Source of the DNA: an uncultured Flavobacteriales bacterium
GTDB lineage: Bacteria; Bacteroidota; Bacteroidia; Flavobacteriales; Schleiferiaceae
NCBI GenBank assembly: GCA_913055685.1
Contig: CAJXKC010000002.1
Location: 496,001-560,000, forward strand
DNA length: 64,000 nt
Direction of reading: 5' to 3'
Part shown: piece after piece, positions 55,522 to 57,812 of the stretch
How the letters are laid out: the number at the start of each line of letters is the position of its first letter
How positions within the stretch are numbered: the first letter of the stretch is position 1
Translations under genes and position numbers: made by a program
The notes under the pieces: model-generated
Told to the model about the DNA's origin: nothing
Databases searched by the model: none
Seen by the model: the letters and a program-made list of their open reading frames with translations, nothing else

Positions 55522-55548
55522 GTTTACAAAAGTATTTTTAAATACATT

Positions 55549-55590
55549 AAAGTGCTATATATCAGTGATATATAGCACTTTTTTTAAGCC
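55549..55590 (+). terminator. Long perfect hairpin terminator after the PhoD-like gene
   Basis: AAAGTGCTATATATCA (55549-55564) and TGATATATAGCACTTT (55566-55581) are perfect inverse 16-bp arms around one central base. The T run 55579-55585 follows. The stem has only three G-C pairs per arm outside AT stretches, but the symmetry and T tract fit an intrinsic terminator. A second small palindrome, GTATTTTTAAATAC (55532-55545), precedes it. Confidence 0.8.
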
Positions 55591-55615: not shown

Positions 55616-55635
55616 ATATTTACATATGTAAATAT
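55616..55635. promoter_or_regulatory. 20-bp perfect palindrome in the XRE gene promoter (probable operator)
   Basis: ATATTTACATATGTAAATAT is a perfect palindrome located 5-24 nt upstream of the TACATTTG -7 box (55640-55647), where the -33 element should be. Its core TACATATGTA resembles the motif TACAAATGTA found inside the XRE gene. The placement fits autorepression by the XRE protein, inferred only. Confidence 0.65.
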
Positions 55636-55639
55636 TTAT

Positions 55640-55647
55640 TACATTTG
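55640..55647 (+). promoter_or_regulatory. -7 box of the XRE regulator gene
   Basis: TACATTTG matches TAnnTTTG and lies 13 nt before the ATG at 55661, giving a very short leader. The -33 position falls inside the palindrome at 55616-55635, so occupancy there would block transcription. Confidence 0.6.
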
Positions 55648-55660
55648 AAAAAAATAGAGA

Positions 55661-56161
55661 ATGGATCCGGTAGCTGGTAGAATCAAAGAGCTAATAGAGG
55701 CTCTTAGTATTAGCAACAAAGACTTTGCTGAAGAAATAGATGTGGCTCCTGCAATTATTAGTCATGTACTTAGTGGCAGAAATAAGGCCTCACTCCATCT
55801 CATACAGCAAATTACAAATGTATATACAAATGTAAATTTAACCTATCTCCTACATGGTAGTGGTAAGTTGTTTAGCGATAGCAGTAGTGATCAGGAAAGT
55901 ACGGTTAGTATGGAAATGAATAGCTTACCATCTGGCGCAAGGTATGTCCCCCCTCCTTCTGGCGCTCCATTAAAAGCAAAGAGTGTAGAAGTAAAAGATG
56001 AAATGGTAGCTGAATCTATTTCCAAGGCTAATACTGAAGAGGAAAGTAAAAGTTCTCGATTAACAAATGTATATACAAATGTTAATCAGGACAAAAAGAA
56101 GAAGATAGCCCGCATTGTTATTTTCTTTGATGATAAAAGCTTTGAAGAATATCTTCCCTAG
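55661..56161 (+). CDS. XRE-family HTH transcriptional regulator
   Basis: 166 residues. The N-terminal HTH (about 1-60) has IKELIEALSISNKDFAEEID and VAPAIISHVLSGRNKASLHL. After a low-complexity linker rich in Ser, Glu and Pro, the C-terminus is a short basic/hydrophobic segment (KKKIARIVIFF). The peptide TNVYTNVN occurs twice (about residues 52-59 and 135-142), encoded by a 20-bp exact DNA repeat. A palindrome covers its promoter. A likely autoregulator; its targets are unknown. The next gene (DUF6580) has its own promoter-like box within 50 nt. Confidence 0.82.
   Translation: MDPVAGRIKELIEALSISNKDFAEEIDVAPAIISHVLSGRNKASLHLIQQITNVYTNVNLTYLLHGSGKLFSDSSSDQESTVSMEMNSLPSGARYVPPPSGAPLKAKSVEVKDEMVAESISKANTEEESKSSRLTNVYTNVNQDKKKKIARIVIFFDDKSFEEYLP
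55814..55833 (+). repeat. First copy of a 20-bp direct repeat inside the XRE gene
   Basis: ACAAATGTATATACAAATGT occurs here and again at 56063-56082. Each copy contains two ACAAATGT units 12 bp apart around a TGTATATACA palindrome. With flanking bases this copy gives two TACAAATGTA sites (55813-55822, 55825-55834), each one mismatch from the promoter core TACATATGTA. Confidence 0.75.
56063..56082 (+). repeat. Second copy of the 20-bp direct repeat inside the XRE gene
   Basis: Identical over 20 bp to 55814-55833. The distance between copies is 249 bp, a multiple of three, so recombination between them would remove 83 codons in frame, keeping the HTH and the basic tail. Confidence 0.75.
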
Positions 56162-56208: not shown

Positions 56209-56745
56209 ATGAAAAAGCACTTAGTATATATCCTTGGATTGATTGCCTTGGCTTTGGTAAGCCGACTCATCCCCCACTGGCCCAACTTTACCGCAATGAT
56301 TGCAGTAGCCTTTACGGGAGGACTGTTATTTAAAAATCGTCTCGAAGCAATCCTGATTCCATTAGGGGTTCTTTTTGTTAGCGACCTACTTATAAATAAC
56401 ACGCTCTATGCTGCTGAAGGCTTCACTTTCTTTACCTCTGGCTTTGGATATATCTATGGGGCCTATGTGCTAATCGCTTTGTTAGGAGCATTAAGTGCCC
56501 GAACCTCAAAGTTGTCTCAAATTTTTGGCGCTGTATCTGGAGCTCTTAGCTTTTACTTGATAACGAATTTTGGGGCCTGGCTGGCCAATCCTATGTACAG
56601 CCAAGATTTTAGCGGACTTATAAGCTCTTACACCGCCGGTTTACCCTTTTTATTGAACAGTGTGGCCTCTACCCTCTTCTATGGAGCTATCATTTACGCG
56701 CTTAAATTAAGCTTTGAGCAAAATAGTGAGGTAGCTAAGGCTTAG
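56209..56745 (+). CDS. DUF6580 family membrane protein, putative transport protein
   Basis: 178 residues with about five membrane helices: HLVYILGLIALALVSRLIPH, MIAVAFTGGLLF, AILIPLGVLFVSDLLI, YGAYVLIALLGALSA and a last pair around 105-170. The pattern SRLIPHWPNFTAMIAVAFTG and GVLFVSDLLIN is typical of the family, which resembles ECF-type substrate-binding components. The substrate is unknown. The CobT-like gene just downstream on the opposite strand and the propeller lipoprotein behind it make a corrinoid-related substrate worth testing. Confidence 0.75.
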   Translation: MKKHLVYILGLIALALVSRLIPHWPNFTAMIAVAFTGGLLFKNRLEAILIPLGVLFVSDLLINNTLYAAEGFTFFTSGFGYIYGAYVLIALLGALSARTSKLSQIFGAVSGALSFYLITNFGAWLANPMYSQDFSGLISSYTAGLPFLLNSVASTLFYGAIIYALKLSFEQNSEVAKA

Positions 56746-56776
56746 ACAAAATTTGAATTAGTTTTCATTAAAGAAG

Positions 56777-56800
56777 CCCTGGTTGATACCAGGGTTTTTT
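56777..56800 (+). terminator. Intrinsic terminator after the DUF6580 gene
   Basis: CCCTGGT, loop TGAT and ACCAGGG form a perfect 7-bp GC-rich stem followed by six T residues, 31 nt after the stop codon. Read on the other strand it has no comparable T run, so it serves the plus-strand gene; the convergent cobT stop lies at its end. Confidence 0.85.
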
Positions 56801-57812
56801 ATTGCATTTGATTTACTGCCCGCAACTCGTTTTGTAAAAGAGCCCAAAGGAGGAAAATAGAATCTCCTTCTAGTCGATTCGGGTATTCATCACTTATCGA
56901 AAGCGCTTCAAAGGCAATAAGCGCCTTTAAGCTATCCTTTAATAAAACGCCGTAGGATTTTAGGTCGGCTTCGATATGCTGCGCATAAGCCCAAGAAATC
57001 GCGGCCATTTCGTCGCCGCAAACAAAAGGCAGACCTAATTCTGCACAGCGGATTTGCGCACCTAATAAAGCTGCCGTTTCAAAGCCTCCGTAAAAGCATA
57101 GATTAGTAAAGTGGTCTTTGCTAAGAGGGTGACTTTTAAAAGCCTTGTCAATCAATTCAAGATCCTCCTGGTCTATTGGACGGTTTAATCTAGATCCTAG
57201 ATTTTCTATCGGCTCACTGGCATAAAGCGCTTTAAGCAAAGCTAAAACACTGGCCCAAGATGCCTCGGCAGCACTGGAAAGGAATACCATATCACAGTTA
57301 TGGTAGTGCGCCCGATCAATGAACTTCCTGCCAATATCGAAGGCATTCTGCATCTGCTCATGGGTCATTGCCGGATAAAGGCTAAAGCTTTCCGTACCTT
57401 CCTTCAGCTTTGAACTCACCAGTTTATTCGAATGATTAAGCCAAAAATTGAAATTTGATTCAAAGGAGTATTCCAAGCCAACATCAATATAATAGTGCTT
57501 TAAACCTTGCTGAGGATTTTGATCGATTAAGGTCTTGCGCTTTAAACTGGCTAAAGCCTGATGAGCGACATCCCTTACACTGTCGGCTCGCTTTAGCTTT
57601 GGTCTAATACCATGATCAGAGAGAAATACAAAGCTCTCCGCTTTTATCAGACCGGGTTTCACGCTTGACTGTAAAGCAGAAATCTGCTGGAAAAATGAAA
57701 GATGCCTGCCGGAAAAATTTAACTGAGCTGCACGAGCTAGCTTATCCTTAAAACTTGCAGGAGCTTCGGGGGCTTTATTTATTTGAAACTGTCTACTATT
57801 TAAAAGCGACAT
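56799..57812 (-). CDS. CobT-like nicotinate-nucleotide:dimethylbenzimidazole phosphoribosyltransferase family protein
   Basis: CobT makes alpha-ribazole phosphate for the lower ligand of cobalamin. 337 residues, the family's usual length. FVFLSDHGI and the YGGFETAALLGAQIRCAELG block correspond to the DHG and GGFE motifs. Glu315 in NRLEGDS stands where the C-terminal catalytic Glu lies in Salmonella CobT (Glu317). It overlaps the propeller lipoprotein gene by 17 nt, so they are one transcript. The sequence is diverged, so activity on DMB is not certain. No cobalamin riboswitch was seen upstream. Confidence 0.78.
   Translation of the reverse strand: MSLLNSRQFQINKAPEAPASFKDKLARAAQLNFSGRHLSFFQQISALQSSVKPGLIKAESFVFLSDHGIRPKLKRADSVRDVAHQALASLKRKTLIDQNPQQGLKHYYIDVGLEYSFESNFNFWLNHSNKLVSSKLKEGTESFSLYPAMTHEQMQNAFDIGRKFIDRAHYHNCDMVFLSSAAEASWASVLALLKALYASEPIENLGSRLNRPIDQEDLELIDKAFKSHPLSKDHFTNLCFYGGFETAALLGAQIRCAELGLPFVCGDEMAAISWAYAQHIEADLKSYGVLLKDSLKALIAFEALSISDEYPNRLEGDSIFLLWALLQNELRAVNQMQ

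Follow-up and report, generated by a model that had tools for sequence, protein, structure and literature searches.

The gene of an XRE-type (HTH_3) regulator in the 64-kb window, by which we mean the whole stretch of DNA analysed, carries the same short palindrome upstream of its start and, repeatedly, within its coding sequence. By comparison with relatives across the class, the protein can be read as a dedicated autoregulator, likely a repressor, that occurs across the class, would bind TACA-NN-TGTA and has more than once had its operator array extend into the gene that encodes it. From the sequences compared, we place the probability of this reading at about 0.8. The site, the confinement of its strong form to the locus, its conservation upstream of homologues and a DNA-level constraint inside the genes are observed.

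The regulator, its neighbours and its homologues

The PF01381 (HTH_3) match of the encoded protein covers residues 8-63 and, at 29.4 bits (E 8.5e-7), lies above the curated cut-off of 23. An AlphaFold2 model built from 4 sequences (mean pLDDT 65.9) has ten-residue block means of 90-94 for residues 1-70 and below 50 for residues 76-87 and 105-147. The protein is laid out as a DNA-binding domain of about residues 1-70 with five predicted helices (3-15, 19-25, 30-38, 45-54 and 60-65), a low-confidence linker and a conserved tail, IARIVIFFDDKSFEEYLP. According to the model, the second of two TNVYTNV peptide repeats falls within a low-confidence, probably disordered stretch. The features of the locus are collected in Table 1.

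Table 1. Features of the XRE locus, in positions of the window.
Feature	Position	Strand	Details
Distal operator-like site	55525..55534	.	TACAAAAGTA
Terminator-like hairpin	55549..55581	+	16-bp arms, then T run; 3' of upstream PhoD-like gene
Promoter operator (putative)	55616..55635	.	20-bp perfect palindrome ATATTTACATATGTAAATAT; core TACATATGTA at 55621-55630
Degenerate second site	55640..55649	+	TACATTTGAA; also predicted TAnnTTTG -7 box
XRE (HTH_3) regulator ORF	55661..56161	+	166 aa; PF01381 match
Intragenic operator pair 1 (putative)	55813..55834	.	TACAAATGTA at 55813 and 55825; T52-N53-V54-Y-T56-N57-V58
Intragenic operator pair 2 (putative)	56062..56083	.	AACAAATGTA at 56062, TACAAATGTT at 56074; TNVYTNV, residues 135-141
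DUF6580 membrane protein	56209..56745	+	downstream of XRE gene

Membership in a toxin-antitoxin pair was considered and rejected. A HigA antitoxin model (TIGR02607) scored 20 bits, below its curated cut-off of 47.7, and no toxin gene is adjacent, the neighbours being genes for a PhoD-like phosphatase and a DUF6580 protein. In family f1, 29 of 33 loci have the DUF6580 gene 3' of the XRE gene and in the same orientation, and there it may be an operon partner that shares the control of the XRE gene. At 56209-57812 of the window it adjoins a gene for a DBI_PRT phosphoribosyltransferase that we take to be CobT-like, and these surroundings are possibly cobalamin-related. A divergent gene for an M14 peptidase stands upstream in 18/20 f3, 8/33 f5 and 7/33 f1 loci, many of which have short flanks. 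Gene order thus supports orthology in f1 and f3; elsewhere orthology is judged from sequence only.

Homologues were matched in 31 of 88 family genomes (E 1e-8), 207 of 296 genomes of the order (L012 as query, 1e-7) and 106 of 296 sampled class genomes (1e-9, by profile). Reading the loci of 30 of the 31 family matches and 73 further loci of the order gave 103 genes, 33 of them in f1, and 40 loci from the class hits raised the number to 143. Targeted searches of f62, f19 and one f44 genus, made after one or two members had shown sites, matched in 10/41, 6/35 and 1/1 genomes, so that the counts for these families are ascertained; eight of the ten f62 genes, all site-bearing, were not picked on that ground. 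The final set comprises 155 genes; in five cases a refetched copy of a gene took the place of the earlier locus. Three loci (L031-L033) encode proteins identical to those of L009, L002 and L004, on contigs of equal length, and were left out of the counts. Two homologues in a single class genome (G447:C55:132851-133300 and G447:C1:90860-91264) contain one internal stop codon each.

A palindrome upstream of the gene and within it

The original prediction described a palindrome upstream of the XRE gene and two exact, in-frame repeats within it, 249 bp apart and each read as TNVYTNV(N), and all of these were found. The upstream element, ATATTTACATATGTAAATAT, is the sole 20-bp perfect palindrome in the window, and its placement at -33 is a prediction. 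ACAAATGTATATACAAATGT, at 55814-55833 and 56063-56082, is likewise the window's sole exact 20-bp direct repeat with copies 20-500 bp apart. Each copy holds two ACAAATGT cores spaced by 12 bp, and the sequence just beyond differs between copies (GTAAAT versus GTTAAT); the two cores of pair 2 have one wrong outer base apiece. In the promoter of the window the nearest full copy is TACATATGTA, the TAnnTTTG fit sitting in the degenerate site at 55640. Sites near -150, such as the distal one in Table 1, recur in several f1 homologues. For the window gene alone, two sites against a mean of 1.1 in within-gene synonymous shuffles is not significant (p 0.30), and flanking codon usage as the reference gives p 0.012. 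The strength of the case therefore rests on comparison, in which significance values overstate independence, the sequences sharing ancestry.

Within the bacterium's own 2.96-Mb genome, TTACAWWTGTAA occurs once, at the XRE promoter. With one mismatch allowed it is found in 41 places against 56 for a reversed-pattern control, so that only the strong form of the site is specific. The double site ACAWWTGTNNNNACAWWTGT is present in 9 of 88 family genomes. All 7 genus genomes have two each at the XRE locus (G018 and G019 with one of theirs in the promoter), and G002 has one in its XRE homologue; a reversed-pattern control turns up no more than once in any genome. A search of the 7 genus genomes for exact TTACAWWTGTAA returned 3 places and hence no regulon for the strong form: the window promoter and one place each in G014 and G015, both inside open reading frames with mutually dissimilar surroundings. 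Two side observations concern related sites elsewhere. In G020 a double site, ACAAATGTATATACAATTGT, lies at G020:C2:30975-30994, 1.9 kb away from the XRE homologue and not inside it. In the own genome, mirrored sites TTGACATTTGTAA and TTTACATTTGTCAA stand 20 bp apart at C1:349669-349700 (L037, about 1499-1535); judged by eye, they precede a small membrane-protein-like gene and then another XRE-like gene, and a similar site may serve this second regulator.

Across the order, TACWWWWGTA is found within 150 bp upstream of 82 of 103 genes, against 2.8 expected from dinucleotide shuffles. By family, it is present in f5 33/33, f3 19/20, f7 5/5, f1 20/33, f10 3/9, f2 2/2 and f4 0/1; the exact form is absent from this interval in 21/103 genes, including 13/33 in f1 and 6/9 in f10. 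Within 250 bp, 91/103 genes have a copy, and in 64 of them the nearest is TACATTTGTA. This common promoter-proximal site contains TAnnTTTG, which PMC9723704 gives as the sigma-A -7 consensus in F. psychrophilum. Of 79 more distal promoter copies 48 have a centre other than ATTT, and in the list of sites ATTT accounts for 31 of 82. With centres this variable, what the copies share is the palindrome, and not the promoter box.

Distances between promoter sites in f5 tend to lie close to multiples of 11 bp (R 0.87 at 11.0, 103 distances), and periodicity is weak in other promoters (R at most 0.41, 122 distances); the spacing of about 11 bp hints at cooperative binding in f5 promoters only. Intragenic distances reach R 0.65 at 11.25 and 0.71 at 9.0 (36 distances) and do not amount to helical phasing, because R is higher at 9.0 and inherited spacings of 12 and 57 bp dominate. 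Five of the 33 f5 genes (L058, L061, L065, L124 and L130) carry TACAAAAGTA at +20, near codons 7-10 (ITKV/FTKV); where the -12 site is present, this copy prolongs the promoter array into the gene by about 32 bp.

A rank test that presupposes no motif compared the 256 possible palindromes made of 4-bp arms around a 2-bp centre. Upstream of the 155 class-wide homologues, TACA-NN-TGTA (TACANNTGTA) ranks 1/256 with 174 sites in 108 genes, and TACA arms are first in all 7 groups tested. They are also first in the coding sequences of f1, f62, f19 and f44 (33, 10, 6 and 7 genes), with 57 sites in 35/56 genes, the f44 rank being based on 3 sites in 2/7 genes. The runner-up there, TGTA, has 14 sites that arise within double sites. 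TACA arms rank 30th in the coding sequences of f5, 20th in f3 and 220th in the remaining families, and 29th in 500 bp of downstream DNA. Measured against flanking codon usage, coding TACANNTGTA counts are 27 vs 1.07 in f1, 19 vs 0.26 in f62, 8 vs 0.36 in f19 and 3 vs 0.18 in f44. Within-gene synonymous shuffles are a harsh reference because the genes' own codons derive from the sites; they give 27 vs 6.05 in f1 (maximum of 1000 shuffles, 12), 19 vs 1.24 in f62, 8 vs 1.14 in f19 and 3 vs 0.25 in f44. A scored (PWM) search, with its threshold picked by eye, gives 1.04 sites per kb in regulator genes vs 0.18 in flanking ORFs. Intragenic TACANNTGTA is nearly missing from f5 (1/33 genes), f3 (1/20) and the rest (0/46), which, with the 2/7 in f44, means that an intragenic site is not needed by every member.

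The intragenic positions differ among relatives. Nine genes of genera g1-g3 (L001-L009) have a site at +152 in the HTH-coding region and a second core 12 bp further on, at +164, which matches in full in L001, L008 and L009; the others have at least one wrong base in it. In genera g4, g8 and g12 only the +164 position has a site, and in L011 that site is imperfect. A second pair before the C-terminal tail is found in the window gene, L002, L003, L008 and L009, with one core in L004; L010, L012 and L014-L016 have a site just past the HTH (+221), and L017, L020 (imperfect) and L022 have tail-proximal sites. None of these later sites occurs in L005, L007 or L013. The position therefore moves while the site persists. 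The reading frame is nearly constant, 65 of 67 scored intragenic sites lying in frame 2, where the site reads Thr-x-Val (TNV in the window gene). As read from the sequence, the usual A after TGTA creates a TAA stop in frame 1, and frame 0 forces Tyr-x-Cys; Thr-x-Val would be mild in a linker.

Constraint on the DNA and alternative readings

Codon choice separates a DNA site from a peptide motif. All 44 TNV tripeptides in f1 use ACA AAT, with Val as GTA in 33 and GTT in 11; elsewhere in the same genes ACA accounts for 58/230 and AAT for 201/290. On a tree of 16 homologues, Thr56 (16 sequences) and Asn57 (15) are the sole two of 53 conserved columns with 0 synonymous changes, the mean being 5.1 and the 14 columns of four-codon residues ranging from 0 to 9; this set omits L018, the tree neighbour of L016 (support 91/84), which has FPEL there and no HTH site. 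Val58 varies (GTA 10, GTT 6), so that many HTH pairs have an imperfect second core. Position 56 is Thr in 16/16 of these proteins and Pro in 73/87 other order homologues, encoded by CCT in 35, CCA in 16, CCG in 15 and CCC in 7. In L020 and L022, TTTCCAAATGTAAA is one base off the operator. Linker copies of Thr-x-Val in f62 and f19 differ in their middle residue, and the codon pattern is mostly kept: ACA in 20/24, GTA in 20/24 and a T-ending middle codon in 21/24 for f62, and 11/15, 13/15 and 13/15 for f19. A middle residue that varies within ACA-NNT-GTA is expected of a DNA palindrome whose centre is free, and not of a peptide motif.

Judged from these codons, the constraint is on the DNA, and the best reading of the TNVYTNVN repeat makes it a by-product of that site. 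The rank test and the codon data bear out the original view that promoter and intragenic sites are the same element and that DNA site and peptide repeat are linked by origin. Selection on the TNV peptide itself, as a fold element, oligomerisation surface or binding motif with DNA similarity as a side effect, could account for the excess of Thr-x-Val over shuffled linkers (24 vs 5.5 in f62, 15 vs 4.3 in f19, 28 vs 8.5 in f1, 8 vs 2.1 in f44). We nevertheless consider it very unlikely given the fixed f1 codons, the range of middle residues (N, D, T, S, I, Y, P, G) in site-bearing codons that mostly keep ACA-NNT-GTA, a site in another frame in L006, and a second repeat that the model puts in a probably disordered stretch. 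There is little to recommend the intragenic sites as antisense promoters, in which TACATTTG on the minus strand would fit TAnnTTTG. While 24 of 33 exact intragenic TACWWWWGTA sites in the 103 genes do have an AAAT centre (ATTT on the minus strand), other centres (such as ATAT, AATT, GA, TC and CC) break TTTG and keep the arms, and TTG stands 17-23 nt before the -7 box at 9/60 antisense sites (0.15; background 0.18) compared with 40/117 sense promoter sites (0.34; background 0.21).

Binding of the site by a different protein, with the XRE gene merely its target, would be compatible with the fact that XRE binding is itself predicted from sequence. It is improbable, however, since the strong form occurs only at the XRE gene in its own genome and the site tracks that gene across the class, as for an autoregulator. 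The comparison with orthologues, on whose repeats the original prediction depended, found them present and at the same time disfavours the heritable on/off or length switch proposed with it, in which recombination between the 20-bp repeats would remove 83 codons in frame. Although these repeats are exact, direct and in frame, and only linker would be lost, none of the 7 genus genomes (one assembly per species) has the deleted form, the five with both pairs space them 225-333 bp apart, L004 retains a single core of pair 2 and L005 has neither, and sites in other clades are not arranged as such a repeat. A deletion switch is accordingly the alternative to which we give the least credence, close to none. 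Autoregulation, possibly with looping, would remain the most economical use of promoter and intragenic sites together, as first suggested.

A proposed feedback array inside the regulator's own gene, and its known relatives

That the XRE protein binds the palindrome, that the effect is repression, and the mode in which intragenic copies act, we infer as follows. The protein would bind TACA-NN-TGTA, best in the form TTTACAWWTGTAAA and presumably as a dimer. In most relatives the start-nearest promoter copy also fits the -7 box, TACATTTG matching TAnnTTTG, and a protein bound at that copy would keep RNA polymerase out. Additional copies, upstream or in the gene, could raise occupancy through cooperative or looped binding, or act as a roadblock to elongation, and either would tighten negative feedback. 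The array would have extended into coding sequence in the window genus, its neighbours and three further families, where a site would be tolerated mainly in the Thr-x-Val frame, TNVYTNVN being the translation of two double operators.

We lean towards a class-wide autoregulator whose own coding sequence is an evolving operator array, with the site overriding the protein sequence (Pro to Thr at 56). It appears rather probable, too, that the site has repeatedly invaded linker or DNA-binding-domain codons, nearly always in the frame that avoids stop and Cys. If true, part of the regulator's peptide is spelled by the DNA site that it binds, and evolution can tune the feedback from within the gene. 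Binding sites within bacterial genes are often written off as chance; here a class-wide presumed operator can be followed into coding sequence, where it fixes synonymous codons and takes the place of a common residue. Synonymous recoding makes it possible to measure what such an intragenic operator costs and what it brings, and a predicted operator is now available for an uncharacterised regulator with homologues in 106/296 of the class genomes sampled.

Among known proteins, 14 solved sequences were matched, including the XRE/HTH_3 repressors SinR, DdrO and CylR2. Repressors of this kind often bind palindromes and autoregulate. The window protein shares their helix-turn-helix domain and differs in its tail, which is of the IERIVIFYSDGSFEEY type and follows a long, variable linker. 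The likeness to Bacteroidota sigma-A promoters, as PMC9723704 presents them, is that TACATTTGTA contains their TAnnTTTG -7 box, whereas distal and intragenic copies here often break TTTG and keep the palindrome arms. In the open-licence literature, judged from listings, we found no account of this regulator, its site or an operator array inside the gene of an autoregulator. Intragenic auxiliary operators are known from E. coli, where lac O2 lies inside lacZ and the gal internal operator inside galE. The locus has the marks of such an operator, with the same site in promoter and gene, conserved as DNA, and by analogy a site inside the coding region would work with a promoter operator, here putative. 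In lac and gal, however, the operator lies in a target gene; the sites here belong to the gene of the regulator itself, occur more than once, are conserved along with an altered protein residue and differ in position among relatives. Intragenic operators are in this sense a known kind, and what is new is an autoregulator gene that repeatedly takes up its presumed operator and visibly changes its protein in doing so.
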